DNA from: Alviniconcha marisindica
Lineage: Eukaryota > Mollusca > Gastropoda > Provannidae
NCBI GenBank assembly: GCA_018857735.1
Contig: JABMCL010002458.1
Location: 62,001-126,000, forward strand
Length of the DNA stretch: 64,000 bases
Reading direction: 5' to 3'
The translations under genes and the position numbers were made by a program. Under the pieces are notes generated by a model. That model saw only the letters and a list, made by a program, of their open reading frames with translations, ran no database searches and had not been told where the DNA came from. Shown piece by piece: positions 255 to 49,105 of the stretch (positions are counted from its first letter, which is position 1; each line of letters opens with the position of its first letter).

Positions 255-589
255 CCAGTTTCAGTTTGCTGGAGGTCCTAGCACTTACAGAACTAATCTT
301 GTTTTAAATTAAAGGTGCATGCACTCTGTGCTATGTATATTTCAGTTTGCTGAAGGTCCAAGCACTTACAGAACTAATCTGTTTTAAATTAAAGGTGCAT
401 GTACTCTGTGCAGAACTAATCTATTTTAAATTAAAGGTGCATGCACTGTGTGCTGTGTCTGTTTCAGTTTGCTGAAGGTCCAAGCACTTACAGAACTAAT
501 CTGTTTTAAATTAAAGGTGCATGTACTCTGTGCAGAACTAATCTATTTTAAATTAAAGGTGCATGCACTGTGTGCTGCGTCTGTTTCAG
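255..589 (+). repeat. tandem duplication carrying an exon acceptor
   Basis: The acceptor TTTCAG plus TTTGCTGAAGGTCCAAGCAC occurs with pseudo-exon starts at 265, 346, 468 and 590 (spacings 81, 122, 122). Only the last continues into coding sequence; the others diverge after about 25 bp. Confidence 0.9.
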
Positions 590-855
590 TTTGCTGAAGG
601 TCCAAGCACTGGCTCCTCTAGCTGATGTGCTTGCTGCCAGCAACACACGCGTTGTTTTCATCGGCAGCTCCACCCCGGACCAGATGGCGGAATATCGTGA
701 GCGCACGGCTTTGATCCCTTTCTGCGGTGACCTGTTCACAGACCCCTCCGTGATCTTGTACAAGCACTTCAGCCTGAAGCGTGGCGTGTTCAGGTCGCTG
801 GTTAGACCTTTCTACACTGGCTTCAAAACGTACGGTGTCAAAGGAGTTATTGAAG
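590..855 (+). CDS. PRXL2C: PRXL2C-like exon (internal)
   Basis: The acceptor is GTTTCAG at 583-589 and the donor GAAG|GTTGGT at 855/856. The first base completes a codon from the missing upstream exon; the exon ends in phase 1. It encodes VFIGSSTPDQ, the DPSVILYKHF segment and the KRG motif. The exon start is the fourth copy of a duplicated acceptor (other copies at 265, 346 and 468). Confidence 0.85.
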
Positions 856-1993
856 GTTGGTGGAGGGACTGCAAGAGCTTCTTGTTTCCATGTGTGACAT
901 GGGGTGGGGGGGGGGGGGGGGGGGGGGGGTGGGTGGAGGTGGCTGTCATCTGGCTGTGGTCTGCCTCCTGGTTGACATGGGCCATTGGCGGTCAGACGGT
1001 TACTGAAATCAAAAACATAATAATTCAGCTTTTCTCCATATTTCAGCATGTGTAGGTTTCTGTGAAGAAGAAATTGGCAACTCCAGGGCCAGATGCTTCC
1101 AGCAAAGCAGTGTGAGGAGAGTCAGTGCCGTGGCTGCTGTCCTGTAATACACTGCGTGTTGCAGGTGTCCAACTGCTGTGCCGTGGCTGCTCTCCTGTAA
1201 CGCACTGCATGTTGCAGGTGTCCGACTTGCTGTGCCGTGGCTGCTCTCCTGTAACGCACTGCGTGTTGCAGGTGTCCGACTTGCTGTGCCATGGCTGCTG
1301 TCCTGTAACGCACTGCGTGTTGCAGGTGTCCGACTTGCTGTGCCATGGCTGCTGTCCTGTAACGCACTGCGTGTTGCAGGTGTCCGACTTGCTGTGCCAT
1401 GGCTGCTGTCCTGTAACGCACTGCATGTTGCAGGTGTCCGACTTGCTGTGCCATGGCTGCTGTCCTGTAACGCGCTGTGTGTTGCAGGTGTCCGACTTGC
1501 TGTGCCATGGCTGCTCTCCTGTAACGCGCTGCGTGTTGCAGGTGTCTGACTTGCTGTGCTGTGGCTAGTCTTCTTTAACACGCTGCGTGTTGCAGGTGTC
1601 CAACTTGCTGTGCCGTGGCTGCTCTCCTGTAACGTGCTCCGTGTGGCAGCTGTGCCGTGGCTAGTCTGCTTTAACATGCTCCGTGTGGCAGGTATCTGAC
1701 TTGCTGTGCCGTGGCTGCTCTCCTATAACGTGCTCCGTGTGGCAGGTATCTGACTTGCTGTGCCGTGGCTAGTCTGCTTTAACATGCTCCGTGTGGCAGG
1801 TATCTGACTTGCTGTGCTGTGGCTAGTCTTCTTTAACGCGCTACATGTTGCAGGTGTCCGACTTGCCAAAGAAACAGCCCATCTGGCCGGCGACTCCTGG
1901 CAGCAAGGGGGCACAATCCTGTTGGACAAAGATGAGAAGGTTCTTTACCAGGTACCTAATAAAATCTGCTGGTATTGGGTTGGTGGTGGTGGT

Positions 1994-2030
<37 letters not shown>

Positions 2031-2585
2031 GGTAGAGCAGCTGAACTCACTGTCTCATAGTTTGTGAGAACTTTAGGAGAATAGGTGATGGTGTCTTTAG
2101 ATTCTGCAGGTCTGTTTGGGACGACAACTGATAATTATGTGGTTTATGACTGACTTGAAAATTGTGAGATTTTTTATTTAAAAAAAAAGAAGTTTTGAAA
2201 TCATTATCACAGTATCAAGTGTTTGACATTCTTTTAGTACATTAATGGTAGATTTTTTTCTTCTTTTATGACAGGGACTCAGAAAGAAATGGGTTTAGTT
2301 TTAGTATAGGCAACAAGCCATTTTCAAACATATTTCACAAGCCTCAAAAAGAACAGATTTAGCAGCTTTTGTGGATTTTTATTTCTGCTTGTATCTATTT
2401 AATCATACTTTTTTTTAACCATTTTCTCTTCTGCACAGCATACAGAAGAGCACCCAGCTGATTGGCCCAGTATGGAAGATGTCCTGCAATTGGTCGGAAT
2501 CTCTGACAAGAAGGTGGACTACAAGAAAGCGCTGTCTGATTGGCTGAAAATGAGGGAAGAGAGCCGGACCCAGCAGAAACCCTGA
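590..2585 (+). CDS. PRXL2C: PRXL2C/AAED1-like peroxiredoxin-like protein (3' part, three exons)
   Basis: Three exons, 590-855, 1854-1951 and 2439-2585, join in frame (entry phase 2, then phases 1 and 0) to give 169 residues and a TGA stop. The hallmark of the AhpC/TSA-like PRXL2 family is visible: FIGSS after the first half of the thioredoxin fold, then DPSVILYKHFSLKRG, then GDSWQQGGTILL, and finally MEDVLQLVGIS close to the C-terminus. The same order and spacing is found in vertebrate PRXL2C (AAED1), a cytosolic thioredoxin-fold protein linked to redox and glycolysis control; that role is family knowledge. The N-terminal part, which would hold the CxxC-like redox site, lies upstream of the window, so activity cannot be judged. 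A basic, Glu-rich tail of about 20 residues extends beyond the usual end. Both internal acceptors sit at the end of tandem arrays that copy them. The choice of donor at 855 over a phase-compatible GTGTGA near 892 rests on protein length and is the weakest point. Confidence 0.85.
1120..1860 (+). repeat. 53-bp minisatellite ending at an exon acceptor
   Basis: Unit of 53 bp with core GTTGCAGGTGTCCGACTTGC; about 13 copies, more diverged between 1560 and 1840. Each unit contains the acceptor and the first ten or so bases of the exon at 1854. The last copy is the real exon start. Confidence 0.92.
1854..1951 (+). CDS. PRXL2C: PRXL2C-like exon (internal)
   Basis: The acceptor GTTGCAG ends at 1853 and the donor is CAG|GTACCT at 1951/1952. 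It begins in phase 1 and ends in phase 0. It encodes VRLAKETAHL followed by the family hallmark GDSWQQGGTILL. Its first bases and acceptor are the terminal unit of a 53-bp minisatellite. Confidence 0.87.
2439..2585 (+). CDS. PRXL2C: PRXL2C-like terminal coding exon
   Basis: The acceptor CTGCACAG ends at 2438 and the stop TGA is at 2583-2585. It encodes DWPSMEDVLQLVGIS, matching the conserved C-terminal SVLQLVGV region of the family, and then a charged tail. A strong donor-like GTGAGT begins at 2625, 39 nt after the stop, so a spliced 3' UTR is possible. Confidence 0.87.
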   Translation, partial: HTEEHPADWPSMEDVLQLVGISDKKVDYKKALSDWLKMREESRTQQKP

Positions 2586-3545: not shown

Positions 3546-3693
3546 GTTTCTGTCCTTTTTGGATTGTAAATGAATGCGATGGGTGAGTGATTATTGTGTG
3601 AGACTTGATCCCAGAAGGTACATCCTACAGTGTTAGCTCCTTGCTCGGGCCAGCGTCACAGTTGCTTTTGGGAGTGACTTGTTGGTTTTGTTG

Positions 3694-4112: not shown

Positions 4113-4148
4113 CTGAGTAAAACAATATTGTTCGTACTTATACACCAA

Positions 4149-19949: not shown

Positions 19950-20134
19950 AAACTAAGTAACAAATAGACATGTAAATATTAAATAGCGTACACGCGCATG
20001 TAAATATTGACCAATGTGCACACATGTATTAATACAAAATAACGCACTCACACTAAATGCTGAATACCATCCATGTCCATGCAAGACCTCACACACAGGG
20101 ACTGGGGCCGCTTACAGCAGCAAGACTGAAGGTG

Positions 20135-21775
20135 TGTGGCACCGCACAGCGTTGTGCAGACAAGTACACTGGGTGGTCAGGGGCACCGCACAGCGTTGTG
20201 CAGACAAGTACACTGGGTGGACAGGGGCACCGCACAGCGTTGTGCACACAAGTACACTGGGTGGTCAGGGGCACCGCACAGCGTTGTGCAGACAAGTACA
20301 CTGGGTGGTCAGGGGCACCGCACAGCGTTGTGCAGACAAGTACACTGGGTGGACAGGGGCACCGCACAGCGTTGTGCAGACAAGTACACTGGGTGGTCAC
20401 TGTGGACAGGGGCACCACACAGCGTTGTGCAGACAAGTACACTGGGTGGTCACTGTGGACAGGGGCACCGCACAGTGTTGTGCAGACAAGTACACTGGGT
20501 GGACAGGGGCACCGCACAGCGTTGTGCAGACAAGTACACTGGGTGGACAGGGGCACCGCACAGCGTTGTGCAGACAAGTACACTGGGTGGACAGGGGCAC
20601 CGCACAGCGTTGTGCAGACAAGTACACTGGGTGGTCCCTGGGTGGACAGGGGCACCGCACAGCGTGTGCAGACTACACTGGGTGGACAGGGGCACCGCAC
20701 AGCGTTGTGCAGACAAGTACACTGGGTGGTCACTGGGTGGACAGGGGCACCGCACAGTGTTGTGCAGACAAGTACACTGGTGTGGTCACTGGGTGGACAG
20801 GGGCACCGCACAGCGTTGTGCAGACAAGTACACTGGGTGGACAGGGGCACCGCACAGCGTTGTGCAGACAAGTACACTGGGTGGTCCCTGGGTGGACAGG
20901 GGCACCGCACAGCATTGTGCAGACAGGTACACTGGGTGGTCCCTGGGTGGACAGGGGCACTGACAGCATTGTGCAGACAAGTACACTGGGTGGTCAGGGG
21001 CACCGCACAGCGTTGTGCAGACAAGTACACTGGGTGGTCAGGGGCACCGCACAGCGTTGTGCAAGACACGTACACTGGGTGGTCAGGGGCACCGCACAGT
21101 GTTGTGCAGACAAGTACACGGGTGGCAGGGGCACCGCACAGGTTGTGCAGACAAGTACACTGGGTGGACAGGGGCACCGCACAGCATTGTGCAGACAAGT
21201 ACACTGGGTGGTCACTGGGTGGACAGGGGCACCGCACAGCGTTGTGCAGACAAGTACACTGGATGGTCACTGTGGACAGGGGCACGCACAGCGTTGTGCA
21301 GACAAGTACACTGGGTGGTCAGGGGGACAGGGCAACGCACGCACAGCGTTGTGCAGACAAGTACACTGGGTGGACAGGGGCACCGCACAGCGTTGTGCAG
21401 ACAAGTACACTGGGTGGTCACTGGGTGGACAGGGCACCGCACAGTGTTGTGCAGACAAGTACACTGTGTGGTCACTGGGTGGACAGGGGCACCGCACAGT
21501 GTTGTGCAGACAAGTACACTGGGTGGTCACTGGTGGACGGGCACCGCACAGTGTTGTGCAGACAAGTACACTGGGTCAGGTGTCAAGTCACGAAGGGACG
21601 GCACCGCACAGTCTGTCAGACATACACGTGGTGTCAGTAGCACATGGGGCAGTACGGGGTCACTGGGTGACTGGCACAGTGTGTGCAGACATCACAGGGG
21701 CACGCACAGTGTTGCACACAAGTACACTGGGTGGACAGGGGCACCGCACAGTGTTGTGCACACAAGTACACTCAG
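20135..21775 (+). repeat. about 42-bp minisatellite, 1.6 kb
   Basis: Core GGGGCACCGCACAGCGTTGT then GCAGACAAGTACACTGGGTGG; about 36 copies, with optional TCACTGGGTGGACA inserts. Stop-poor in three frames, giving spurious long open frames. Confidence 0.94.
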
Positions 21776-28192: not shown

Positions 28193-28268
28193 GAGGTTCT
28201 GGGTGTGAGCCAAACGACTGCGACCTTACTTCTAGACTGCTCTGAAGTGAGAGTAGCGAGTGCTTCAT
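28182..28268 (-). CDS. GRAMD1: GRAMD1-like exon 15 (terminal coding exon)
   Basis: The acceptor is CTGTTTTCAG|ATGAAG and the stop TAG is at 28184-28182. It encodes [16 protein letters not shown] and a short tail; vertebrate GRAMD1B continues LLDQ with a similar MKxSLxxLQ. The acceptor and ATG are copied in the 28-bp array at 28262-28487, and the stop codon lies in the first unit of the array at 28016-28192. Alternative last exons were weaker. Confidence 0.87.
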   Translation of the reverse strand: MKHSLLSLQSSLEVRSQSFGSHPEPRTA

Positions 28269-30053
28269 CTGAAAACAGGACAGAAAGATGGTTCATCTGA
28301 AAACAGCAAAGAAAGATGGTGCATCTGAAAACAGGAAAGAAAGATGGTGCATCTGAAAACAGGACAGAAAGATGGTGCATCTGAAAACAGGACAGAAAGA
28401 TGGTGCATCTGAAAACAGGAAAGAAAGATGGTGCATCTGAAAACAGGACAGAAAGATGGTTCATCTGAAAACAGCAAAGAAAGATGATTCTTTCACACAT
28501 GCTCAGAGAACCAAAGACACAGGTTTGCACTCAGGCAGAAGTGAGGAGTAGAAGAGAGACACCAAAGAGACAGGTTTGCAGTCAGGCAAAGGAGTGGAAG
28601 AGAGACACCAAAGAGACAGGTTTGCAGTCAGGCAAAGGAGTAGAAGAGAGACACCAAAGAGACAGGTTTGCAGTCAGGCAAAGGAGTAGAAGAGAGACCG
28701 AGCATTCATCACAAGAGACACCAAGAGACAGTTTGCAGTCAGGCAAAGGAGTGGAAGAAGACGGGACCAAAAGAAAAACAAAGCTTTGCAGTCAGGCCCA
28801 AGGAGTAATGAAGCAGAGACACCTAAAAGTAGCACATGCTTATCATGTCAGAAAGCATAAGGCATTAACAAAACATTAGCATACCAAAGAGACATGTTTG
28901 CAGTCAGGCAAAGGAGTAGAAGAGAGACACCAAAGAGACAGGTTTGCAGTCAGGCAAAGGAGTAAAAGAGAGACACCAAAGAGACAGGTTTGCAGTCAGG
29001 CAAAGGAGTAGAAGAGAGACACCAAAGAGACAGGTTTGCAGTCAGGCAAAGGAGTAGAAGAGAGACACCAAAGAGACAGGTTTGCAGTCAGGCAAAGGAG
29101 TAGAAGAGACATGGGAGGAGTAAAAGAGAGACACCAAAGAGACAGGTTTGCAGTCAGGCAAAGGAGTGGAAGAGAGACACCAAAGAGACAGGTTTGCAGT
29201 CAGGCAAAGGAGTGGAAGACAGATGGGAGGAGTAAAAGAGAGAAACAAAAGCTTTAAAGTGACGCTCCATATCTAGTCACTGTACACTGCCATGGTATCA
29301 CATGAAACAAATTCACTATAAATCACCATCATCTTCATCCACTGTACAGAAAGATAAGGCATTTAACAAAACATTAGCATCATTTTTTCTTGATGAGCCT
29401 CAATATCAGCACCCTAATAACGAGGCTTTACACTTGCTTCACAATGCAGCTGTTTGTTGTTTTCTATTTCCTGTTATCACACTGACCGCTGTCACTTCTC
29501 CATTGTGAAAGACGTCTTAGCACTAGCATTCTTCCGCTGTTCCCTTCTCTCTCTCCCTCACACACATGCATGCGCGCATGCACACACACACACACACACA
29601 CACATATACAATTCATCCAAAATAAGCACAAAAATGTGGAGGACTTCTCTTCCTTTGGACTCTTTGTGTTCCAGACCCCCCCCCCTCCCACACACACACA
29701 CACACACACATCTGCCCGACCTGAACCCCCCACTCCCTGACTGGTACCTGGTCCAGAAGCTGTATGGTGGTGTGAAGGATCTCCCTCCACTTGGACACCT
29801 CATCCTGGTGAAGGGAGCGCTGCTGTCGAAGCAAGTGGGCCCAGTCCTCCTGACTTCGGGGGTGTTGCCTGTCACACACACGCAGCAACATACTGACGAC
29901 TGTCACATACACACAGCAACATGCTGACAACTGTCACACACAGAGCAACATACTGACGACTGTCAAATACACACAGCAACATACTGACGACTGTCACATA
30001 CACACAGCAACATGCTGACGACTGTCACACACCCATCAACATACTGACGACTG

Positions 30054-30087
<34 letters not shown>

Positions 30088-33000
30088 CAACATACTGACA
30101 ACTGTTGCACACAGAGCAACATACTGACGACTGTCACACACACATATACACAGCAACATACTGACAACTGTCACACACAGCAACATACTGACGACTGTCA
30201 CACACACAAAGCAACATACAGATGACTGACACACACACAGCAACATACCGATGACTATCACACTCACATCAACAGCAACATACTGACGACTGTCACACAC
30301 ACATCACAGCAACATACTGACGACTGTCACACACAGACAACATACTGATGACTGTCTCACACACACAAGCAACATACGAGACTGTCACCACACACCACAC
30401 ACAACATACCAACACACACACACACACACAACATACTGACGACTGTCACACACACACCAACATACTGACGACTGTCACACCCAGATCAACATACCAATGA
30501 CTGTCACATATATACACAAATCAACATATGGATGACTGTCTCACACACACAAATCAACATACAGAGGACTGTCTCACACACAAATCAATATATTGATGAC
30601 TGTCGTATACACAAATTGACATATTGATGACTGTCACACACACAGGTCAACATACAGATGACTGTCTCACACACACAAATCAACATACAGATGACTGTCT
30701 CACACACACAAATCAACATACAGATGACTGTCTCACACACACAATCAACATACAGATGACTGTCTCACACACACAATCAACATACAGATGACTGTCTCAC
30801 ACACACAAATCAACATACAGATGACTGTACTCACACACACAACATCAACATACAGATGACTGTCTCACACACACAATCAACATACAGATGACTGTCTCAC
30901 ACACACAAATCAACATACAGATGACTGTCTCACACACACAAATCAACATACAGATGACTGTCTCACACACACAAATCAACATACAGATGACTGTCTCCAC
31001 ACACAAATCAACATACAGATGACTGTCTCACACACACAATCAACATACAGATGACTGTCTCACACACAAATCAACATACAGATGACTGTCACACACACAA
31101 ATCAACATACAGATGACTCACACATGCAAACCACATACAAATCAACATGCTGATGACTGTTCCACATGCAAATCAATATACTGATGACTGTCCACACACA
31201 TAAATCAATATACTGATGACTGTCCACACACATAAATCAATATACTGATGACTGTCACACGCATAAATCAACAGACTGATGAATTGGGGGTGTTGACTAT
31301 CACAGGAAAGGAAATAATTTCTTCGCGCCCAGTCATCCATGACAGAAACATCAGGGGACTGTCACAGATGAATGAACATACAGATGACCTTCAGGTGTTG
31401 CCAGCACACAGACAGTGCAACAATGCAGTGAGTGAACACTACTCACAGGAGGTTGTCAATTTCCTGGTCAGTGTGGGCTGAGTACAAGCCTGCTGTTGAC
31501 GCCTCCATCGCCCACAGCTTGTAGAACAGCACAGCGTTGAACATCACCAGCAGTATCAAACTGAAACCAACCAACCAACCAAGTGTTGAACATCACCAGC
31601 AGTATCAAACTGCAACCAACCAACCAACCAAGTGTTGGACATCACCAGCAGTATCCAACTGCAACCAACCAACCAACCGAGTGTTGAACATCACTGCAGC
31701 AGTATCCAACTGAAATGACTAACCAACCAATCACAGCACTGACCACACTCAAACTCGTAATCAAACTGAAATCAACCAATCACTGAATCAACTAACCACA
31801 GCACTGACCACACTCAAACTCGTAATCAAACTGAAATCAACCAACCACAACACTGACCATACTCAAACTCGTAATCAAACTGAAATCAACCAACCACAAC
31901 ACTGACCATACTCAAACTTGTAATCAAACTGAAATCAACCAATCACTGAATCAACCAATCACAACACTGACCACACTCAAACTCGTAATCAAACTGAAAT
32001 CAACCAACCACAACACTGACCATACTCAAACTCGTAATCAAACTGAAATCAACCAACCACAACACTGACCATACTCAAACTTGTAATCAAACTGAAATCA
32101 ACCAATCACTGAATCAACCAATCACAACACTGACCACACTCAAACTCGTAATCAAACTGAAATCAACCAATCACTGAATCAACCAACCACAACACTGCAC
32201 AGCAGAAGGTAAACCACAGCACACTGAACTGAAATTTCAACATCATCAGCAGAATTAAAATGGAATCAGTCAATTAGTGAATGACATCACCAGACCCCCC
32301 CCCCCCAAACGTCTGCTTGAGGACCCCAGACTGATCCCTGGCAGGTCTGTCTAGTTGGTTCATTTCAATCACTGTGGACAGGGACTCTCTTCTTGGTTCA
32401 TTTGAACCACAAGTCTATAAGGACTGCTATCTTGGTTCATTTGAACCACAAGTCTATAAGGACTGCTATCTTGGTTCATTGGAACCACAAGTCTATAAGG
32501 ACTGCTATCTTGGTTCATTGGAAACGGTCTATAAGGACTGCTATCTTGGTTCATTGGAACCACAAGTCTATAAGGACTGCTATCTTGGTTCATTTGAACC
32601 ACAAGTCTATAAGGACTGCTATCTTGGTTCATCGGAACCACAAGTCTATAAGGACTGCTATCTTGGTTCATCGGAACCACAAGTCTATAAGGACTGCTAT
32701 CTTGGTTCATCGGAACCACAAGTCTATAAGGACTGCTATCTTGGTTCATCGGAACCACAAGTCTATAAGGACTGCTATCTTGGTTCATCTGAACCACAAG
32801 TCTATAAGGACTGCTATCTTGGTTCATTCGAACCACAAGTCTATAAGGACTGCTATCTTGGTTCATTTGAACCACAAGTCTATAAGGACTGCTATCTTGG
32901 TTCATTGGAACCACAAGTCTATAAGGACTGCTATCTTGGTTCATTGGAAATGGTCTGTAAGGACTGCTATCTTGGTTCATTTGAAACGGTCTATAAGGAC

Positions 33001-34389
33001 TCTTTGTCTCAGTCTCTTCCTAGTTCATTTGAACCAAACTGTACTGGGACTACCGTCTTGGTTCATTTGGAACAGAAGCCTATAAGGACTACCTTCTGGG
33101 TTCACCTGAGATGGTAATCTACAGGTTTCATTGGAACCAGCAGTCTACAAAGACTACCTTCTGGGTTCACCTGAGATGGTAATCTACAGGTTTCATTGGA
33201 ACCAGCAGTCTACAAAGACTACCTTCTGGGTTCACCTGAGCTGCTAATCTACAGGTTTCATTGGAACCAGCAGTCTACAAAGACTACCTTCAGTGCTTCT
33301 ATGAAGCAGAGGCCCACAAGGACTGCCCCTCCACAGTTCACTTTCTTGGCTCATCACGAAGCAAAAGTCTACAAGGACTACATTTCCGTTCATTTAAACC
33401 AGAAGTCCGTTCCGAAATCACAACCAGAAGCTGATCAGTTCTAAGCAGGCTTCATGTCTGCCCGACAATGAAAATGAGGCTCTGTCACAGGTCAGGCTGA
33501 CATTTGCTTGTGATGCAAAAGGACAAAAGACAGGTTTCAGACCATTTTGCAGCACCTGCCAATCACACTGTAATGAGGCCACAAAGGCTCCTGCCGATCA
33601 CACTGTAATGAGGTCACAAAGGCACCTGCCAATCACACTTTAATGAGGTCACAAAGGCACCTGCCAATCACACTGTAATGAGGCCACAAAGGCTCCCACA
33701 AACACACCACTGTAATGAGGACACAAAGGCTCCTGCAAGCACACCACTGTAATGAGGTCACAAAGGCTCCTGCAAGCACACCACTGTAATGAGGTCACAA
33801 AGGCTCCTGCAAACACACCACTGTAATGAGGTCACGAAGGCTCCTGCAAGCACACCACTGTAATGAGGTCACAAAGGCTCCTGCAAGCACACCACTGTAA
33901 TGAGGTCACAAAGGCTCCTGCAAACACACCACTGTAATGAGGTCGCGAAGGCTCCTGCAAACACACCACTGTAATGAGGTCACAAAGGCTCCTGCAAACA
34001 CACCACTGTAATGAGGTCACAAAGGCTCCTGCAAACACACCACTAAGAAGCATGACTGCAGCTCTGACAAGGAAAGGCCACAGTTACTTACATGATGATG
34101 ATGACTCGAACCAGCGTGTCTGCATTGAGTCTGATCATTCCTTCCTCCTTCAGGCCCGCACCTGCACACAGGTCCGGGTCAGTCATGTGTCACCTCCAGC
34201 CATAAATTAACACATGATGTTGATGAGGAGGTTGATAATAATAACAGATAAGTTTTGTATAGCGCTATTCTCTGGTGTACACAAACTCACTGCAATTTAC
34301 AACATTCTCCAACATTTTCTAAGTGGGGATTTCTTTTTGATGGTAACATGTTCATGAAAGTAATACTTATATGACAATTAACAATGTAT

Positions 34390-34426
<37 letters not shown>

Positions 34427-37400
34427 TGGTGATGATGATAACCAGCATGCACACAGATAACCTGGACCAGCCCTGCAAAGTGATGTTGCCTGTGTCACTC
34501 ATGATGTTGATGATGTTGACAACCAGCATGCACACAGATAACTTAAATCAGCTCTGCAAAGTGACACTGCCTGTGTCACGAATGATGGAGATAATGGTAA
34601 TGATGAACATGACAGTGATGATGAATCTGATTACTCATGGTAATAGTGATGGTGATGATGCTGTAAGATGATGATGGTTACAGTAATGGTAGTAAGGATG
34701 GTGATGATTATGATCAGATTTAAACTAGATCATCTCCCCTCTTTTCAGTGAAGCACGTGTGTATCACCAGTCACAAAAATAACAGTGGTAACAAGTGGAC
34801 AGACAAACCAACCAACAGAATGACTAACAGACAAACCAACCAACAGAGTGACTAACAGACAAACCAACCAACAGACAAACCAACCAACAGAGTGACCAAC
34901 AGACACACTAACCGACAGATAAACCAACAGGGAGACAAATGGACAGACAAACCAACCAACAGACACACCAACCGACAGATAAACCAACAAGCAGACAAAG
35001 TGAGAGCTACACCAGCGAAGCACTAACACAACCAACCAACAGCCTAACCTCTGGTGGGGGAAGGGGGCGTGGACGAGGGCTGCCTGTCGCTCAGGGCGCG
35101 AGCCTGAACCATGGTGTCCGACACGCTGGCGTGCAGCTTCCGTCGGCGGCGCAGTTTCTTCTTGGACAGCTGGTGCTGGTGGCTGGGGTGATGGCTCTCC
35201 TGTCTCTCCGCCTCCCGTCGCAGGTGAGCCGCTGCCACACACCACACCTTGTGTCATTTTTTGTTCATCAGGAACCCTCGGCCACAGGCTCTTACAGGTG
35301 AGCTGTATCATTTTTTGTTCATCAGGAACCCTTGGCCACAGGCTCATAGAGGTGTCCGGAGACAAAGTTCAACCACTTTCAATGCCCCCCTTTTTTTTTC
35401 AAGGACCTAATGAACTTTAAGAAAGAACAAGCAGATTTTTTTAAATCTATAGATGCAACACTCAGTCACTGTCACACGCCTGAACAGGCCACCTTAAGCA
35501 ACCAATAAAAAGGCTGTTGTCATAAGCAACCAATAAAAAGGTTGTTGTCATAAGCAACCAGTAAAAAAGTTGTTCGTCATAAGCAACCAGTAAAAAGGTT
35601 GTCATAAGCAACCAATAAAAAGGTTGCTGCCTTAAGCAACCAGTAAAAAGGTTGCTGCCTTAAGCAATCCATAAAAAGGTTAAAAGACTCATTATTCTCT
35701 CCTCTTTAAATACAGAGGATATATATCACCATAGGAAATGAAATGAAAATGAAAACAATATCATCTCATTAATGGGAAAACAGCCTGCAGATGATATGCA
35801 GGAAAAAGGCCCATGTGAAAGCTGGGACCAAAGACGGCTGCTGGGTGAAATACTCACAGAGGTTCCTGAAGTAATCGGTCAGCCCGTTGACAGCACTTTT
35901 CTCTATCATCCCTGCAGCACAAAGCAACCGCAACCAGTCACACACCACCTGACTCCAACACCTATACCTCATCCCCACCGCAGACTGGCACCACAGGAAC
36001 TGCAGTCTAAGACTTGTCTGTCAACATCCCCACCACAGACTGGCACAACAGGAACTGCAGCCTAAGACTTGTCTGTCAACATCCCCACCACAGACTAGTA
36101 CAACAGGAACTGTAGTCTAAGACTGTCAACATCCCCACTACAGACTGGTACAACAGGAACAGCAGTCTAAGACTTGTCTGTCAACATCCCCACCACAGAC
36201 TGGTACAACAGGAACTGCAGTCTAAGACTTGTCTGTCAACATCCCCACCACAGACTGGTACAACAGGAACAGCAGTCTAAGACTTGTCTGTCAACATCCC
36301 CACTACAGACTGGTACAACAGGAACAGCAGTCTAAGACTTGTCTGTCAACATCCCCACTACAGACTAGTACAACAGGAACAGCAGTCTAAGACTGTCAAC
36401 ATCCCCACCACAGACTTGTAAAACATAAGCTCTTCAGTGTCAGACATCCCTAAACATTCCCATCACAGACATGTGGAACATAATCTACACACACATAGTG
36501 TCAGACTCACCCTTAAACATTCCCATCACAGACTTGTGGAACATAATCTACACACACATGGTATCACTCACCCTTAAACATTCCCATCACAGACATGTGG
36601 AACATAATCTACACACACATGGTGTCACTCACCCTTAAACATTCCCATCACAGACTTGTGGAACATAATCTACACACACATGGTGTCACTCACCCTTAAA
36701 CATTCCCATCACAGACTTGTGGAACATAATCTACACACACGTGATGTCAGACTCACCCTTAAACATTCCCATCACAGACTTGTGGAACATAATCTACACA
36801 CACCTGGTGTCACTCACCCTTAAACATTCCCATCACAGTTTTGTGGAACATAATCTACACACACATAGTGTCAGACTCACCCTTAAACATTCCCATCACA
36901 GACTTGTGGAACATAATCTACACACACATAGTGTCAGACTCACCCTTAAACATTCCCATCACAGACTTGTGGAACATAATCTACACACACATGGTGTCAC
37001 TCACCCTTAAACATTCCCATCACAGACTTGTGGAACATAATCTACACACACGTGATGTCAGACTCACCCTTAAACATTCCCATCACAGACTTGTGGAACA
37101 TAATCTACACACACATGGTGTCACTCACCCTTAAACATTCCCATCACAGACTTGTGGAACATAATCTACACACACGTGGTGTCAGACTCACCCTTAAACA
37201 TTCCCATCACAGTTTTGTGGAACATAATCTACACACACATGGTGTCACTCACCCTTAAACATTCCCATCACAGACATGTGGAACATAATCTACACACACA
37301 TAGTGTCAGACTCACCCTTAAACATTCCCATCACAGACTTGCGGAACTTGAGCTCGCTGGTTACTTGAACCCGACACTTGTTGAGGGAGACGCGGGTGAG

Positions 37401-40400
37401 GCAGTAGCGTAAGACCACATAGAAGGAGTCTCCATAGGGAATGCCGCCGTTGCAGCACTCACAGTCAATGCAGTAGGCCTTGCCCGGCTTGCTGTCCTTG
37501 TAACACACCTGCTCACACACACATCAACACACCTGCTCACATAGCAACACACACATCAACACACCTGCTCACATAGCAACACAGACATCAACACACCTGC
37601 TCACATAGCAACACACACATCAACACACCCGCTCACATAGCAACCCACACATCAACACACCTGATCACATAGCAACACACCCGCTCACATATCAACACAC
37701 CTGCTCACATAGCAACACACACATCAACACACCTGCTCACATAGCAACACACACATCAACACACCCCTCACATAGCAACCCACACATCAACACACCTGAT
37801 CACATAGCAACACACCCGCTCACATAGCAACCCACACATCAACACACCCGCTCACATAGCAACACACACATCAACACACCCGCTCACATCAACACACCCG
37901 CTCACATAGCAACACACATCAACACACCTGCTCACATAGCAACACAGCTGTTCATATAACAACACACACATCAACACACCTGCTCAAACATCAACACACA
38001 CATCAACACACCTGCTCACATAGCAACACACACATCAACACACCCGCTCACATAGCAACCCACACATCAACACACCTGCTCACATAGCAACACACACATG
38101 AACACATCTGTTCACACCTCAACACACACATCAACACACCTGCTCACATAGCAACACACACAGCAACACACACATCAACACACCTGCTGACATAACAACA
38201 CAGCTGTTCATATAACAACACACACATCAACACACCTGCTCACACAGCAACACACACATCAGCACACCTGCTCACATAACAAGACAGATGTCAACCCAGC
38301 TGTTCACATAACAAGACAGAAGTCAATCCACACTGTGTGAAAGACAAAGAGAGGTAGAGCAGTCGTGCAGTGTACTCCCACACTCAGCGACTGACCTGTC
38401 TCTCCGTGGAGGGCGAGGTGCGCGGGCCTATAGAGTTGTTGAGCGTCAAGGTGTAGCTGATGTTCCTCACTCGGTTTCCGTCTTCGTCTGGCTCTTCCTG
38501 CCAGGATGGGAGGTTGAGATCTGGGCCACAGAGCGAGGTAAGTAAGTAGATTGCTTTTTACACCCAGTCAACCAGGGCCACAAAGTAATTTGGTAAAGTG
38601 GGTTTTTACACCCAGTCAACCAGGGCCACAGTGGTTTTTACACTCAGTCAACCCAGGTCATAGTGAGGTAAGTAACTTGGTTTTTGCACCCAGTCAACCA
38701 GGGCCACAGTGGTTTTTACACCCAGTCAACCATGGCCACAGTGGTTTTTACACCCAGTCAACCAGGGCCACAGTGGTTTTTACACCCAGTCAACCAGGGT
38801 CATAGTGAGGTAAGTAACTTGGTTTTTACACCCAGTCAACCAGGGCCACAGTGAGGTAAGTAACTTGGTTTTTACACCCAGTCAACCAGGGTCATAGTGA
38901 GGTAAGTAATTTGATTTTTACACCCAGTCAACCAGGGCCACAGTGAGGTAAGTAACTTGGTTTTTACACCCAGTCAACCAGGGCCACACTGGTTTTTACA
39001 CCCAACCAGTGTCACAGTGATTTTTACAGCCAGTCAACCAGGGCCAGAGTGGTTTTTACACCCAGTCAACCAGCGTCACAGTGGCTGTATTCATACCATA
39101 CAGCAGCCAGCCTACTTCCACTCCAGTCACAGCTGGCTGTATTCATACCATACAGCAGCCAGCCTACTTCCACTCCAGTCACAGCTGGCTGTATTCATAC
39201 CATACAGCAGCCAGCCTACTTCCACTCCAGTCACAGCTGGCTGTATTCATACCATACAGCAGCCAGCCTACTTCCACTCCAGTCACAGCTGGCTGTATTC
39301 ATACCATACAGCAGCCAACCTACTTCCACTCCAGTCACAGTGGCTGTATTCATACCATACAACAGCCAGCCTACTTCCACTCCAGTCACAGCTGGCTGTA
39401 TTCATACCATACAGCAGCCAGCCTACTTCCACTCCAGTCACAGTGGCTGTATTCATACCATACAGCAGCCAACCTACTTCCACTCCAGTCACAGCTGGCT
39501 GTATTCATACCATACAGCAGCCAACCTACTTCCATTTCACTGTCACAGCTGGCTGTATTCATACCATACAGCAGCAGGGGGCAAGTATTCACGTGAACAC
39601 ACATGCATGTACACTTATGGGCACTCACACACACACAAAACCACACCCTACTTGCACACATACTCCCTTCACATACACACACACAACCACACCCCACTTG
39701 CACACATACTCCCTTCACATACACACACACAACCACACCCCACTTGCACACATACTCCCTTCACATACACACACACAACCACACCCACTTGCACACATAC
39801 TCCTTTCACATACACACACACAAAACCACACCTACTTGCACACATACACCCTTCACATACACACACACAACCACACCCCACTTGCACACATACTCCTTTC
39901 ACATACACACACACAAAACCACACCCCACTTGCACACACCCCCCCTTCCCCCCCCCCCTTCCCCCCCCACATACTTAGCCCTCGGAGACTGACCGAATGT
40001 TTTCTGGGAGCCCACAAAGACCCTGAAGAAGGGGGAGTCGGTGAAGATGTTCTCAAACACCTTGTCCACGTTGAGGTTGAACACCTCGTCCAGGTACAGC
40101 TTCTCCAGGTGCTGGTGGCCGCTGCACACCACCTCACCTGTCAAGTCAGTCAACACACAGGCTACAGCAAATCAGCCAACCAGTCTGCCAGTAAATCTAT
40201 CTCCCAGTCAACACTCAGGCTACAGCAAATCAGCCAACCAGTCTGCCAGTAAATCTCTCTCCCAGTCAACACTCAGGCTACTGCAAATCAGCCAACCAGT
40301 AAATCTCTCTCCCAGTCAACACTCAGGCTACTGCAAATCAGCCAACCAGTAAATCTATCTCCCAGTCAACACTCAGGCTACTGCAAATCAGCCAACCAGT

Positions 40401-43064
40401 AAATCTATCTCCCAGTCAACACTCAGGCTACTGCAAATCAGCCAACCAGTAAATCTATCTCCCAGTCAACACTCAGGCTACTGCAAATCAGCCAACCAGT
40501 CTGCCAGTAAATCTATCTCCCAGTCAACACATGCGCCTACTCAGTCAGCTAAGCAGTGTTGAAGAGCCTCATGTCAGTTCAACTGAAGAACTAGCCTCTT
40601 ACTCCAGATCACCTGTAGCATCGTCCCTTGTACCTTTTATCGTTATACAAGCCAAAAAACTGAAACGCTCACCCACCCCTCTACTTATTCCACAACCATT
40701 TCCTCTAAGAGGTTTGCTCTCTCTCCCCATCTCGTTCTTTTGGGGCTGGGGGGTTGGGAGGGTGGGGGGAGCTGGGGGAGGGGGTTTAATGACTGTCATC
40801 AGACACCAGTCAGGCTGGTGGGGGGGGGGGGGGGGGGCAGGGGGAGGGAGTTCAATGACATGTCATCTGACACCAGTCAGGCTGGTGGAGTAGGGTGGGG
40901 GTGGGAAGGGGGTTCAATTGTAATCAGACACCAGTCAGGCTGGGGGTAGAAGAGGGGGGGGGGGGGCAGTGGGAGGGGGGGGTCAGGGGGAGGGGGTTCA
41001 GTGATACTGTCATCAGACAGCAGTCAGGCTGTGGGGGGGGGGGGGGCGTGGGGGGGGGGGGGGGCAGGGAGAGGGGGTTCAGTGATGTCATCAGACAGCA
41101 GTCAGGCTGTGGGGGGGGGGGAGGGGGGGGGCAGGGGGAGGGGGTTCAGTGATACTGTCATCAGACAGCAGTCAGACTGGGGGGGGGAGGTGGGCAGGGG
41201 GAGGGGGTTCAGTGATGTCATCAGACAGCAGTCAGGCTGTGGGGTGGGGGGGGAGGGGGGGGGGCAGGGGGAGGGGGTTCAGTGATACTGTCATCAGACA
41301 GCAGTCAGGCTGTGGGGTGGGGGGGGGGGCAGGGAGGGGGTTCAGTGATGTCATCAGACAGCAGTCAGGCTGTGGGGTGGGGGGGGGGGAGGGGGCAGGG
41401 GAGGGGGTTCAGTGATGTCATCAGACAGCAGTCAGGCTGTGGGGTTGGGGGGGGGGGGGAGGGGAGGGGAGGGGGTTCAGTGATACTGTCATCAGACAGC
41501 AGTCAGGCTGGGGTGGGGGGGTGGGGTGGGGGGCAGGGAGAGGGGGTCAGTGATGTCATCAGACAGCAGTCAGGCTGTGGGGTGGGGGGAGGGGGAGGGG
41601 AGGGGGGGGAGGGGGTTCAGTGAACTGTCATCAGACAGCAGTCAGGCTGTGGGGGGGGGGGGGGGGGCAGGGGAGGGGGTTCAGTGATATGTCATCAGAC
41701 AGCAGTCAGGCTGTTGGGGGGGGGGGGCAGGGGTTCAGTGAACTGTCATCAGACAGCAGTCAGGCTGTGGGGTGGGGGGAGGGGGAGGGGGGGGTTCAGT
41801 GATACTGGCATCAGACAGCAGTCAGGCTGTGGTGTGTGTGTGGGGGGGGGGGGGGGGGCAGGGGGAGGGGGTTCAGTGATACTGTCATCAGACAGCAGTC
41901 AGGCTGGGGAAGGAGCTGTTCACTGAAGTCATGATCAGGGCTCATCTGGGCCCAGTGGCTACAAAAGGTTTGATGAGCCAACTGCTCTCTGTCCCTCCCT
42001 CATCACCCCACTCAACCATGGAACCAGCCAAGCAGTTTCCAGCCAGCCAGCCAGCCAACCAGCCAGCCAGATAGCCAGCCAGCCAGCCAAGTCCCACCAT
42101 CAGAAGCACAAGTCCTTACTGTCACTGTCTTCGGAAGTGTCGCCGTAGTCGGTGGGAGGGGAGCTAGTTGCCAGAAGAGCGGGGGCAGAGAGGACAGAAG
42201 GGGATTGGTTGAACACTTCATCCGACACCAGCGCGTCTGTGTCCTCGTTGCTAGGCACCGCCATGCTGTCGTTGGGCGCCGGGTGATCCGACGAGTCTGT
42301 CAGGTCCTGGAGATGAAAGGGCACCCCGTCAGCATGCTGTAGCCCATCTTGGGCACCAAATGCGCACAACGTCCACAGGCTCCCTGCGTGTCCCAGGGGC
42401 CCCGGTACCACGGACAACTCAGAGCCAGGACACTCTTTAGTGCAGATCTTGGGAATCAAAGCACACCCAGTCACCATTCTCACCTGTGGCTGGTGAATGA
42501 ACGCACGTAAAACAAGCACGTACAGTATGTCTTTGGGACCAAAGTAGGCATGCTATTGTATGTCTTGAAGACCAAGATACACCAAGTCAGCATACTCTTG
42601 TATGTCTTGAAGACCAAGGTACACCAAGTCAGCATGCTTCTGTGTGTGCTGGGGACCAAAGTACACCAAGTCAGAATACTCTTGTATGTATTGGGGACCA
42701 AAGTACACCGAGTCAGCATGCTTCTGTGTGTACTGGGGACCAAAGTACACCGAGTGAGCATGCCTTTGTGTGTATTGGGGACCAAAGTACACCGAGTCAG
42801 CATGCCTTTGTGTGTACTGCGGACCAAGGTAGGCCAGGTCAGTATGATGTATCAGAAGAAGAAAAAAGACAGGTATCTTGTAGAAAAGAACATGAAATCC
42901 AAAAAATCAACCTCTTGATGTGTTACAAACCAGTTATTTATCTCTCTCTCAGATTATACAGTGTTACAAACCAGTTATCTATCTATCTCTCACATTATGC
43001 AGGATGTTACAATCTGTTATCTCTCTCTCTCTCACACACATTATGCAGGGTGTTACAAACCAGT

Positions 43065-43126
<62 letters not shown>

Positions 43127-43195
43127 TTATACAGGGTGTTACAAACCAGTTCTCTCTCTCTCTCTCACACATTATGCAGGGTGTTACAAACCAGT

Positions 43196-43236
<41 letters not shown>

Positions 43237-46200
43237 ACATTATTCAAACGAGAGAAAAAGAACCTGTACCCTTAAGGAAAAGGTGACAGCCAACTTAGAG
43301 TCTGCTCTATTAAAATGAAAATAAACCATGAGACATCCTCTTTGAAGAAATGAAAACAAAGAAGATCACAGCCTTTTTGTCTTTCTTCTTTTCTTTCTTT
43401 CTTTTGGTATCAAAATTCCACATCCACCCCTTCTCCCATTTGATTTGAATTTTCCACTGCCACTGTGATCATCCACCTACGTTGTTTCAACAAAAGATGT
43501 GATCTAAAATAATTGCTTCCTCCATCTCCTTGAATAAGACCTATTTTCTGTTATCAGACCTGGGATTCTGATGGCAAAAACTGGTCCACAATCATTTGGA
43601 ATCTTTTTTCCAGCACACTGCAGTATTGCAATGCCAGGTTTTCACTCTCTTCCGACACTCACAATGGTCACAGAAAAACTCCACACCTGTCAGCATCCAC
43701 ACCTGTCAGCATCACACTGGTCAAGATGGATTGGAGGACAACCTGACAGCATCACACTGGTCAAGATGGATTGGAGGACAACCTGACAGCATCACACTGG
43801 TCAAGATGGATTGGAGGACAACCTGACAGCATCACACTGGTCAAGATGGATTGGAGGACAACCTGACAGCATCACACTGGTCAAGATGGATTGGAGTACA
43901 ATCTGACAGCATCACACTGGTCAAGATGGATTGGAGGACAACCTGACAGCATCACACTGGTCAAGATGGATTGGAGTACAATCTGACAGCATCACACTGG
44001 TCAAGATGGATTGGAGGACAACCTGACAGCATCACACTGGTCAAGATGGATTGGAGGACAACCTGACAGTGTGAGACTAGCACAGGCCCAAGCACTCAGC
44101 GCACTCCAGGCACAGGCCCACACCACGCCTACCTTCTGGCTAACATAAAGCCTGACAGTACCACAGGCACACACCATGCCTACCTTCTGGCTAACATAAA
44201 GCCTGACAGTACCACATCATGCCCACCTTCCGGCTAACATAAAGCCTGAGAGTACCACAGGCACACACCATGCCTACCTTCTGGCTAACATAAAGCCTGA
44301 CAGTACCACATCATGCCCACCTTCTGGCTAACATAAAGCCTGACAGTACCACAGGCACACACCATGCCTACCTTCTGGCTAACATAAAACCTGACAGTAC
44401 CACATCATGCCCACCTTCTGGCTAACATAAAGCCTGACAGTACCACAGGCACACACCATGCCTACCTTCTGGCTAACATAAAGCCTGACAGTACCACATC
44501 ATGCCCACCTTCCGGCTAACATAAAGCCTGACAGTACCACAGGCACACACTATGCCTACCTTCTGGCTAACATAAAACCTGACAGTACCACATCATGCCT
44601 ACCTTCTGGCTAACATAAAGCCTGACAGTACCACATCATGCCTACCTTCTGGCTAACATAAAGCCTGACAGTACCACATCATGCCTACCTTCCGGCTAAC
44701 ATAAAGCCTGACAGTACCACATCATGCCCACCTTCCGGCTAACATAAAGCCTGACAGTACCACATCATGCCCACCTTCCGGCTAACATAAAGCCTGACAG
44801 TACCACATCATGCCCACCTTCCGGCTAACATAAAGCCTGACAGTACCACATCATGCCCACCTTCCGGCTAACATAAAGCCTGACAGTACCACATCATGCC
44901 CACCTTCCGGCTAACATAAAGCCTGACAGTACCACATCATGCCCACCTTCCGGCTAACATAAAGCCTGACAGTACCACATCATGCCCACCTTCGGGCTAA
45001 CATAAAGCCTGACAGTACCACATCATGCCCACCTTCGGCTAACATAAAGCCTGACAGTACCACATCATGCCCACCTTCTGGCTAACATAAAGCCTGACAG
45101 TACCACAGGCACACACCATGCCTACCTTCTGGCTAACATAAAGCCTGACAGTACCACATCATGCCCACCTTCTGGCTAACATAAAGCCTGACAGTACCAC
45201 ATCATGCCCACCTTCTGGCTAACATAAAGCCTGACAGTACCACATCATGCCCACCTTCTGGCTAACATAAAGCCTGACAGTACCACATCATGCCCACCTT
45301 CCGGCTAACATAAAGCCTGACAGTATCACATCATGCCCACCTTCTGGCTAACATAAAGCCTGACAGTACCACAGGCACACACCATGCCACCTTCTGGCTA
45401 ACATAAAGCCTGACAGTACCACATCATGCCCACCTTCTGGCTAACATAAAGCCTGACAGTACCACAGCACACCCATGCCTACCTTCTGGCTAACATAAAG
45501 CCTGACAGTACCACATCATGCCTACCTTCTGGCTAACATAAAGCCTGACAGTACCACAGGCACACACCATGCCTACCTTCTGGCTAACATAAAGCCTGAC
45601 AGTCACGCACATTCATGCCCACCTTCTGGCTAACATAAAGCCTGACAGTACACATCATGCCCCTCTGGCTAACATAACCGACAGTACCACATCATGCCCT
45701 ACCTTCTGGTACAAAACCCCGTACCACTCATTGCCTACCTGCAGTGGCTTACATAAATGCTCTACAGTACCTGGCATTCATGCCTACCTTCTGGTAGACA
45801 TAAGACACTGCACAGTCCCTAGGCACACAGCCACCTACATTGGTACTAACCTGTACCACACCACACATGCCTACTTTCTGCTAACTGGCTATCAGTTAAC
45901 CTGACAGTACCCCAGGACACATCATGCCTTTCCTTTTGGCACACAGACTCTACATACTCTTAGGCACACACCATCAGTTTATGTTCTGTATGCATCCTCA
46001 GGCTTCAGCTTTATCCCCGTGTAGCAGCATGACATCGTCCTCTGTAGGGCCCAGCACTTCAGTATCTCTGTAGGATCACTGACACTCCTGACGTTATCTC
46101 TGCACACAGACACTTCAGTGTATCTCTGTAGCACACTGACACTTCAGTTTATCTCTGTAGTACACTGGCATTTCAGTTTATCTCTGTAGTACACTGGCAT

Positions 46201-49105
46201 TTGTTTATCTCTGTAGCACACAGACATCACACTTTATCTCTGTAGTACACAGCCACCTCAGTTTATCTCTGTAGCACACAAACACCTCACTTTATCTCGT
46301 TAGCACACAGACACCTCAGTCTACCTCTGTAGCACACTGACACTTCAGTTTATCTCTGTAACACAGATACTTCTGTTTAACTCTTAGCACACCACATTTC
46401 AGTTTATCTCTGTAGTGCTCAATGGCATTTCAGTGTATCTCTGTAGCACACTGCCATTTCAGGTTATCTCTGTAGAATAATGATACTTCAGGTTATCTCT
46501 GTAGAATAATGACACTTCAGGTTATCTCTGTAGAATAATGACACTTCAGGGTATCTCTGTAGCACAGTAACACTTCAGTTTGTCTCTGTAGAATAATGAC
46601 ACTTCAGTTTATCTCACACAGTAACACTTCAGTTTGTCACTGTAGAATAATGACACTTCAGGTTATCTCTGTAGAACAATGACACTTCAGTTTATCTCGC
46701 CTTGTAACACTTCAGTTTGTCACTGTAGAATAATGACACTTCAGGTTATCTCTGTAGAATAATGACACTTCAGGTTATCTCTGTAGCACAGTAACACTTC
46801 AGTTTATCTCTGTAACAAAGTGACATTTCTGTTTATCTCTTTAGCACACCAAAACTTCAGCCAATCTCTTTAGTAAGACTTCACCAAACCCAAATTATGG
46901 TTTATTTCTTTAGAATGACTTCAGCTAAACACCAACACTTCAGTTTATCTCTTTAGAAAGACTTAGCTAAACACCAACACTTCAGTTTATCTCTTTAGAA
47001 AGACTTAGCTAAACACCAACACTTCAGTTTATCTCTTTAGAAAGACTTAGCTAAACACCAACACTTCAGTTTATCTCTTTAGTAAGACTTCCCAGCTAAC
47101 ACCAACACTTCAGTTTATCTCTTAGTAAGAGCATTCCTAACTTGAACACTTCAGTTTATCTCTTCAGTATTCAGCACTTCAGTTTTTAAAGCACCACTAC
47201 ACAACACTTCAGTTTATCTCTTCAGTAAGACTTCAGCCAATTTTCTTTAGTAACTTCAGCTAACACCAACATTCAGTTTATCTCTTCAGTAAGACTTCAG
47301 CTAACACCAACACTTCAGTTTATCTCTTCAGCAAGACTTCAGCTAACACCAACACTTCAGTAAGACTTCAGCTAACACCAACACTTCAGTTTATCTCTTC
47401 AGTAAGACTTCAGCTAACACCAACACTTCAGTTTATCTCTTCAGTAAGACTTCAGCTAACACCAACACTTTAGTTTATCTCTTCAGTAAGACTTCAGCTA
47501 ACACCAACACTTTAGTTTATCTCTTCAGTAAGACTTCAGCTAACACCAACACTTCAGTTTATCTCTTCAGCAAGACTTCAGCTAACACCAACACTTCAGT
47601 AAAACTTCAGCTAACACCAACACTTCAGTTTATCTCTTCAGTAAGACTTCAGCTAACACCAACACTTCTACTGATCTCTTTAATATGAGCACCAGTCTAG
47701 TTCGTCTTTTAGTAAGAGACTGACTTGACATAACATACACCTCAAATATCTCTGCAGTAAGGCATGGGCTGCCTTCAGCAAAGGACCAGCTAAACATCGA
47801 CACTTCCACTGATCTCTTTAGTCCGACATCAAATGAGCATCAACACCTCAACTATCTCCTTAGTGAGATTAGTCAGCTGCACACCAGCACTCTACAGCTC
47901 ATCTCTCTGGCCAGTGAAACATGAGACTGACAAGAAGGCGTCACTGACTAGCCAGTGAAACATGAGATTGACAAGAAGGTGTCGCTGACTAGCCAGTGAA
48001 ACATGAGACTGACAAGAAGGCGTCGCTGACTAGCCAGTGAAACATGAGACTGACAAGAAGGCGTCGCTGACTAGCCAGTGAAACATGAGACTGACAAGAA
48101 GGCGTCGCTGACCAGCCAGTGAAACATGAGACAGACAAGAACACCTCACTGACCAGCCAGTGAAACATGAGACGGACAAGAACACCTCACTGACCTGCTC
48201 CATCAGGTTGTTCTGCCAGATGCGGAACAGCATCATGTAGGTTTTGTCGCGAGCGCCGTAAGAAGTGAAGAAATATTTCTCGGTGGTGGTGGTGATCTGG
48301 ATGGCGTTGGGGATGACGCGGGCTGTCCTCTCCTTGGTGATGGCCGTGATGTCCTTGCAGGCAATCGTCAGCTGCAACAGGGCACCACCATCAGCCATGT
48401 TTTCAGTGATTGAAAGAGGTCATGACAGAGCAAAGTGTACAATACTTTACTTGTCAATAATTTTTAAGAGAAAACAAATCTGAGACAAGAGTTGTAGAGT
48501 GAGAAAGAATAGATGGGGGATTACTGATTTTTTAACATGCTGTCATTGTGTAAACTATGACATTTACATTAGGGTGACAGTGAGAGAAAGAGAGAGACAG
48601 AAACAGAATGAGGAACAGAGAGATGAGACGGGAAAAGAGAGAAGAAAAAAAATATAACAAAAAAAGCATGCGACAAAGAGAGATGGGGAGAAAATGGAGG
48701 CAGGACAGAACAAGAGAGAGACAGAGACTCTGAGAGAGAGAGAGAGACAGCGACACAGAGAGTAGAGAAAGGCAGAGAGAGCGAGAGAGATGGAGAAAGA
48801 CTGAAAAAGAGAGAAACAAAAAGAGAACAAGAGAGAGTCCGACAGAAAAAGAATCAGACAAACATGCAGAAAGTGAGAGACTGTCAGACACAGCGAGAAA
48901 CAGACAGAGAGAAAGAGAGACAGACAGAGAGAAAGAGAAACAGACAGAGAGAAAGAGAGACAGACAGACACAGCAAGAAACAGACAGAGAGAAAGAGAAA
49001 CAGACAGAGAGAAAGAGAGACAGACAGAGAGAAAGAGAGACAGACAGACACAGCAAGAACAGACAGAGAGAAAGAGAGACAGACAGACAGTCGGAGAGAG
49101 AGAGC

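Follow-up and report, generated by a model that had tools for sequence, protein, structure and literature searches.

The stretch analyzed here is a window of 64,000 nucleotides from contig JABMCL010002458.1 of the provannid gastropod Alviniconcha marisindica; positions are those of this window. It contains two genes that we modelled by homology, a GRAMD1/Aster-type gene on the minus strand and a PRXL2C-like gene on the plus strand. At 8 of the 32 splice junctions in these models, the junction is spanned or abutted by a minisatellite that repeats this very junction, so that near-copies of the splice site stand in the intron beside the real one.

Two gastropod genes and their junctions

The GRAMD1 gene encodes the Pfam domains GRAM and VASt, its PDB matches include yeast LAM6, Aster-C and Aster-A, and its closest relatives come from Pomacea and Batillaria. 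The named gastropod relatives of the PRXL2C-like gene, which encodes an AhpC-TSA_2 domain, include those of Nucella, Littorina and Pomacea. Exons were located by a purpose-written spliced alignment of protein to DNA, with the GRAMD1 proteins of Pomacea and Aplysia and three PRXL2C relatives as queries. The resulting models comprise GRAMD1 exons A-D and F-O and PRXL2C exons a-c, with reading frames that are continuous across the introns, and their 32 junctions consist of 17 acceptors and 15 donors. The acceptors of exon A (51308) and of PRXL2C exon a (590; the preceding exon lies outside the window) were placed by eye, and homology fixes neither the 51308 acceptor nor the 28215 end of the GRAMD1 gene. 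For two exons the alignments gave alternative starts, 42336 or 42306 for F and 34161 or 34147 for L, of which 42306 and 34161 were taken. The GRAMD1 exons numbered 5, 8, 9, 13, 14 and 15 in an earlier note on this DNA are, by count, the exons called D, H, I, M, N and O here.

A tblastn search of the window did not reveal a conserved GRAMD1 exon of 48 codons between D and F (Pomacea residues 140-187, PMPSKELWQWIHYNYGDELGLTSSDDDYV...), the best chance matches scoring about 21 bits. The exon is expected in the intron at 42307-48194 of the minus strand, which is 5.9 kb long and rich in arrays. Because exons D and F are both in phase 0, the frame is kept if this exon is skipped; it may have been lost, or it may fall into an assembly gap within the intron. 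The segments 45747-45679 and 42720-42667/42625, considered as exons in its place, were dropped for lack of clear similarity, as were 34472-34462 and 27582-27573, which appeared as exons in the Aplysia alignment only.

Minisatellites that repeat the adjacent splice site

Each of the 32 junctions was subjected to a self-shift test, in which the sequence is compared with itself at shifts of 12-499 bases and the reach of the repeat into exon and intron is measured. Seven junctions were clearly positive, namely the donors of D and I and the acceptors of M, N, O, a and b (Table 1). An eighth, the acceptor of I, matched over 7 exon and 9 intron bases and was counted because the copies recur mostly every 32 bp, the last spacing being 24 bp. 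Two borderline junctions were left uncounted: for the H acceptor, 11 intron bases reappear at 6 places upstream with TG in place of the junction AG, and at the K donor there is a loose match of 1 exon base and 19 GGTT-rich intron bases. No junction array was detected by the self-shift test at the remaining 22 of the 32 junctions. The difference between acceptors (6 of 17 positive) and donors (2 of 15) is not significant (p = 0.23).

Table 1. Junction arrays and gene features in the window. Exon sequence per unit equals the overlap of array and exon; the last numerical column gives the aligned copies that retain GT (donors) or AG (acceptors).
Feature	Position	Strand	Unit (bp)	Exon sequence per unit (bp)	Exon share of unit	Copies with GT or AG	Remarks
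PRXL2C exon a acceptor array	288..610	+	42/122	21	0.50	2/2	
PRXL2C exon b acceptor array	1125..1866	+	54	13	0.24	12/12	acceptor 1854
GRAMD1 exon O acceptor array	28266..28486	-	28	3-5	0.11	7/7	acceptor 28268
GRAMD1 exon N acceptor array	29869..31282	-	~31-33	0	0	30/34	ends exactly at acceptor; exon start 29868; candidate copies
GRAMD1 exon M acceptor array	31536..31730	-	49	25	0.51	3/3	acceptor 31560
GRAMD1 exon I donor array	36437..37347	-	61-63	32	0.52	13/14	donor 37316; exon part is coding
GRAMD1 exon I acceptor array	37508..38318	-	32	7	0.22	16/24	acceptor 37508; candidate copies
GRAMD1 exon D donor array	47910..48195	-	41	1	0.02	6/6	donor 48195; begins 1 bp inside exon
GRAMD1/Aster-like gene, exons A-O	28215..51308	-					GRAM from exons C and D; VASt from G to J
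PRXL2C-like exon a, AhpC-TSA_2	590..855	+					Pfam, spliced alignment
PRXL2C-like exon b	1854..1951	+					spliced alignment
PRXL2C-like exon c	2439..2579	+					acceptor without array; three alignments stop at 2573, 2579 and 2576

The earlier note had named nine such junctions, and all stand except the acceptor of exon 8 (H), which is borderline. Its further statement that the end of an array falls exactly on the splice site is correct for D, N and O, where the array edge lies 0-5 bp from the junction; the other five arrays reach 7-32 bp into the exon. For D, Tandem Repeats Finder (TRF) places the end at 48182, and the self-shift test carries the array on to the junction. It is almost true, as the note also claimed, that the site is present in every unit: when copies were aligned by sliding comparison with the real junction, 89 of 102 retained GT or AG and 13 did not, some rows of the N and I acceptor arrays being doubtful because their units are rich in GT. 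Of the 14 copies in the I donor array, 13 are identical to the real site over the last 16 exon bases and the GTGAGT that follows. In the a array, the full junction is copied twice, at -122 and -244. The units were also said to differ wholly between arrays, and this is roughly the case; 10 of the 28 unit pairs resemble each other more than mononucleotide shuffles do at p<0.05, several of these being pairs of GT-rich units, and such resemblance is attributable to GT-richness or to the splice consensus.

The direction of copying can be read from the units themselves. Their exon-derived parts encode residues that are common to other gastropods, namely FRK.VMGM.KG at the end of exon I, ILLVMF at the start of M, LLK in a and RLA in b, and the coding sequence in each I donor unit specifies a peptide that is conserved in Pomacea and Batillaria. 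The exon sequence is therefore the older one, and the intronic copies are derived from it.

Proteins predicted from other contigs provide an independent view of the two PRXL2C arrays, although not of the six GRAMD1 arrays. Three of them (P0127, P0128 and P0130) are 97-99% identical to the PRXL2C query over the covered 58% of it, and P0128 reads through a unit of the a array into exon a on another contig. A fourth, P0138, also from another contig, reads the b array and its upstream flank in antisense; for P0138 and for P0130, which holds exon a, the longest contig is 97,322 bp. The junction peptides of P0138 recur six times, every 16-17 residues, which corresponds to a unit of about 50 bp compared with 54 bp here, in a contig that may belong to another species. 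This shows the a and b arrays to be real, and the different b-array units at the same flank point to turnover.

Apart from their position, the junction arrays look like the other arrays in these introns. In a comparison of 9 junction rows (N contributing two) with the 29 remaining rows, we found no significant difference in unit length (median 42 and 43, p = 0.96), copy number (p = 0.13), identity (p = 0.90) or total length (p = 0.23). By a simple consensus, a strong acceptor-like site occurs in at least half of the units in 5 of the 29 non-junction rows, so that splice-like motifs are not limited to the junction arrays; by the same kind of consensus, none of the 29 has a GTRAGT donor in at least half of its units. 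The PRXL2C introns also contain runs of G shortly after exons a and b, an imperfect one of 33 bases (901-933) and a perfect one of 36 (1994-2029).

Chance duplication and selection on exons as the probable cause

Tandem repeats make up much of this DNA. TRF arrays with a period of at least 10 occupy 51% of the window as a whole; the figure is 65% for the GRAMD1 locus, 57% for the segment from 3.2 to 28 kb and 19% for that from 52 to 64 kb. Once shorter periods are included, arrays account for 72% of the intron bases of the two genes. Against this background, the observed number of junction arrays was compared with three null models. If junctions were covered by present-day arrays as often as intronic bases are, 22.9 of the 32 would be expected to lie in arrays, and far fewer do (P(X<=9) = 4e-7), as expected if arrays cannot extend far into exons. 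The second model concerns the present-day edges of arrays, which were refined for the 8 positives and taken from TRF for the rest, a difference that favours an excess: 3 edges lie within 4 bp of a junction compared with 0.8 expected (P = 0.05), 10 lie within 32 bp compared with 5.6 expected (P = 0.04), and P is 0.11, 0.13, 0.21 and 0.30 for edges within 10, 20, 64 and 128 bp, respectively. In the third model, each of the 38 intronic array rows is collapsed to a single founder unit, leaving 9,474 bp of intron of which 18.1% is founder sequence. An array grows from a single duplicated unit, later copies altering the length of the intron and leaving the origin of the unit unmoved, and we judge this model to be the right one for the birth of arrays. 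Under it, 5.8 of the 32 junctions are expected in founders and 8 are seen (P = 0.21; 0.36 for 7 junctions and 0.11 for 9); across eight settings of the model, the expectation ranges from 5.6 to 7.8 and the probability of at least 8 from 0.18 to 0.54. Edges within 4 bp of a junction, of which there are 3, are likewise close to the founder expectation of 1.9-2.3 (P ~0.31). The frequency of junction arrays is not clearly above that produced by chance duplication in a very repeat-rich gene.

A second regularity concerns how much exon a unit contains. None of the eight units is more than 0.52 exon (Table 1), which would have a probability of 0.005 if breakpoints were uniform, the cut-off having been set after the eight values were seen; a Kolmogorov-Smirnov test of uniformity gives p = 0.03 (0.02 with the 122 bp period for a). 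As a lead, we suggest that units with a large exon part may be treated as exons and eliminated. Of the two causes that the earlier note had offered for the layout, selection on exons that fixes the array edge fits this limit.

We consider it probable that the arrays are junction-spanning minisatellites of the type called 'mirages' in amphioxus, and that very frequent tandem duplication within introns produced them, mainly as a by-product. The set is well formed and unusually dense, and it is best explained by such duplication in combination with selection on exons. A segment of about 28-62 bp that happened to straddle an exon edge would be duplicated in tandem, and this would be tolerated because the copy nearest to the exon keeps the full exon, so that splicing there would yield the normal message. 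Slippage or unequal exchange would then add copies, while the exon-side end of the array would stay fixed at the first breakpoint, less than one unit inside the exon, and only the intron would lengthen. The exon-derived coding copies within introns indicate that sequence did move from the exon edge into the intron. Founders that were more than about half exon appear to be missing, as if such copies had been spliced and removed by selection. Some copies match the junction over tens of bases, and the correct site would therefore presumably be picked by exon definition.

Several observations weigh against so simple an account. Some of the 38 rows are pieces of a single array (N was counted as two and 38678-39064 as three), and when these are merged to 31 arrays, the founder model predicts 4.7 junctions, with P = 0.19, 0.09 and 0.04 for 7, 8 and 9, respectively, so that the observed 8 of 32 stand at P = 0.09. 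With the borderline H and K junctions, 10 would be seen, and P falls to 0.014 with merged and 0.05 with unmerged rows; a mild preference for exon edges is therefore possible. The nominal excess of present-day edges within 4 and within 32 bp points the same way. The founder model assumes a single founder per array and no lost arrays, the count covers only two genes, and the limit on exon share has the post hoc character already mentioned. Finally, exon-derived columns are less variable than the rest of the unit in five of the seven arrays for which more than one copy was tested, those of the I donor, M, O, b and the I acceptor; the single exon column of D is more variable than the rest, and N has none. 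This could hint at constraint on the copies, which were themselves selected by similarity to the junction.

Such a preference, if real, would be accommodated if a local process linked to transcription or splicing, involving R-loops, paused polymerase or nucleosome edges, started duplications at exon edges, which is the other cause that the earlier note had proposed. Besides the merged founder count and its version with H and K, the excess of edges over present-day positions at two of the six distances speaks for such targeting, as does the G/T-richness of the intronic arrays on the sense strand (G exceeds C in 26 of the 38 rows and T exceeds A in 30). However, non-array sequence of the GRAMD1 introns is skewed in the same direction, the junction arrays resemble the others, 22 of the 32 junctions have no array and 2 more are borderline, and no setting of the unmerged founder model yields an excess. 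With the probability of at least 8 junctions ranging from 0.09 to 0.54 over the founder models, targeted initiation is not established and we regard it as unlikely. Its more sweeping form seems to us doubtful too, and if anything slightly more so: in the snail lineage, repeats would arise preferentially at transcribed exon edges, a large share of the genome's junctions would stand beside near-identical decoys that exon definition passes over, and selection would cap the exon content of the decoys. Alternatively, the arrays or their copy numbers could have been made or distorted by the assembler. The missing 48-codon exon leaves room for a local error in the D-F intron, and one amphioxus mirage was apparently misassembled in the draft genome (PMC3087553). 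Nevertheless, units inside an array differ among themselves, and the a and b arrays recur, with similar flanks and different units, in proteins predicted from other contigs, which makes an artefact very improbable.

If, instead, the copied sites were kept for splicing, for instance as alternative or stepwise (recursive) sites, they should bear the mark of selection, and some of the evidence has this appearance. GT or AG is retained in 89 of the 102 copies; mismatches with the real junction, a reference that is itself constrained, occur less often at the dinucleotide (15 of 204) than elsewhere in the core (421 of 2160); variation in exon-derived columns is low in most arrays; and the unit of the b array is a multiple of three, with the array partly open in the frame of the exon. 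Donor use has been reported for a minisatellite in human IFI6, and the minisatellite CeRep25B in introns of C. elegans has been linked to splicing (PMC4039745). Measured within the copies, however, conservation of the dinucleotide does not stand out. It does not vary in six arrays, for one of which a single copy was tested; yet in the five of these with at least 3 copies the same is true of 58-85% of the other columns, and in the arrays at the N and I acceptors it is about as variable as the remaining columns. Moreover, most unit lengths (28, 31-33, 41, 49 and 61-63) would shift the frame, and the b array has a different unit length on another contig. Neither preservation nor purging of the copied dinucleotides is clearly indicated; because their conservation is indistinct within copies, we do not claim selection on the decoys, and functional decoys appear improbable to us. 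A mobile-element origin, through introners or a minisatellite-bearing transposon inserted at exon edges, can hardly be entertained. Beyond the presence of repeated DNA in introns, nothing was found in its favour, whereas units differ between arrays except for GT-rich or splice-consensus likeness, and they contain the host exon's own sequence (at least 1 bp in 7 of 8, at least 7 bp in 5 of 8). This origin is already contradicted by the exon-derived units.

A coding reading of the arrays was ruled out, most unit lengths not being multiples of three. The 54 bp array at exon b is open in the frame of the exon from 1148 to 1549, and from there to the exon the frame is closed; its upstream copies, if used, would add 18-residue repeats. 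The homologous proteins fit use of the site nearest to the exon.

Known systems and neighbouring sequence

The earlier note knew of no described system with this layout, which was mistaken. In amphioxus, tandem duplications that resemble minisatellites and extend across an exon-intron boundary have been described as mirages in Adh3 and in the globins BflGb6 and BflGb9 (PMC3087553), and they have also been reported in TnC and PGBD5 (PMC3902484). Their units, many of which include AG or GT, measure 10-72 bp in Adh3 and about 150-160 bp in the globins, and copy number differs between two haplotypes in BflGb6 (PMC3087553). The snail arrays share with mirages the essential arrangement, a repeat that spans or abuts a donor or acceptor boundary (at 8 of 32 junctions, N abutting with 0 bp of exon), and the retention of AG or GT in many units (89 of 102 here). 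They differ in their molluscan host, in affecting 8 of 32 junctions of two neighbouring genes at a locus that is 65% minisatellite, and in the presence of some 30 copies beside one junction. Splicing of the amphioxus globins with mirages appeared undisturbed by reverse transcription PCR (PMC3087553).

In human IFI6 (6-16), a minisatellite with multiple splice donor sites has been noted, cited as Turri et al. 1995, and two downstream repeat units are reportedly used as donors, giving three mRNAs (PMC4526556); the likeness lies in a minisatellite that supplies multiple donors, with reported use in IFI6 and putative sites in the snail. In human genes within segmental duplications, variable repeats located at exon-intron boundaries may give rise to new introns; these internal repeats resemble the snail arrays in being minisatellites with units of about 30 bp, but half of them lie in the coding sequence of recent gene copies, whereas the snail arrays lie in introns of conserved genes (PMC2812944). 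Intron gain by tandem genomic duplication of AGGT likewise copies splice signals in tandem; there, the duplicated segment becomes the new intron, whereas here the copies lie inside introns and the order of exons is that of the homologous proteins.

Units of one introner family share sequence between insertion sites. In the snail, no such sharing was found beyond GT-rich or splice-consensus likeness, and the units contain host exon sequence.

Among the matches listed in searches of open-licence literature, we found no case of junction-spanning minisatellites in a mollusc. What is new here is the phylum, as far as that literature shows, together with the density and the counts; the layout itself has already been published in amphioxus. 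Its occurrence in a mollusc suggests that mirages may arise in any place where introns are densely filled with minisatellites, and that a chordate-specific process is not the only route to them. The arrays are also natural constructs for the question of how the spliceosome chooses among many near-identical sites, a case in point being the I donor array, in which 13 donors agree with the real site over the last 16 exon and first 6 intron bases. Furthermore, the count based on collapsed founders provides a simple null model that is needed before targeting is invoked.

Outside the two genes, five open reading frames at 51.8-52.0, 59.2-59.7 (two), 9.4-9.9 and 63.6-63.8 kb yielded no match to a Pfam family. 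Two frames on the minus strand, 51814-52047 and 59183-59575, have in common the motif ..SELLH.Y.PS.., which has no Pfam match and which we take to resemble the end of a reverse transcriptase of long interspersed nuclear elements. On the plus strand, an open frame of 600 residues at 20011-21813 consists largely of minisatellite units.

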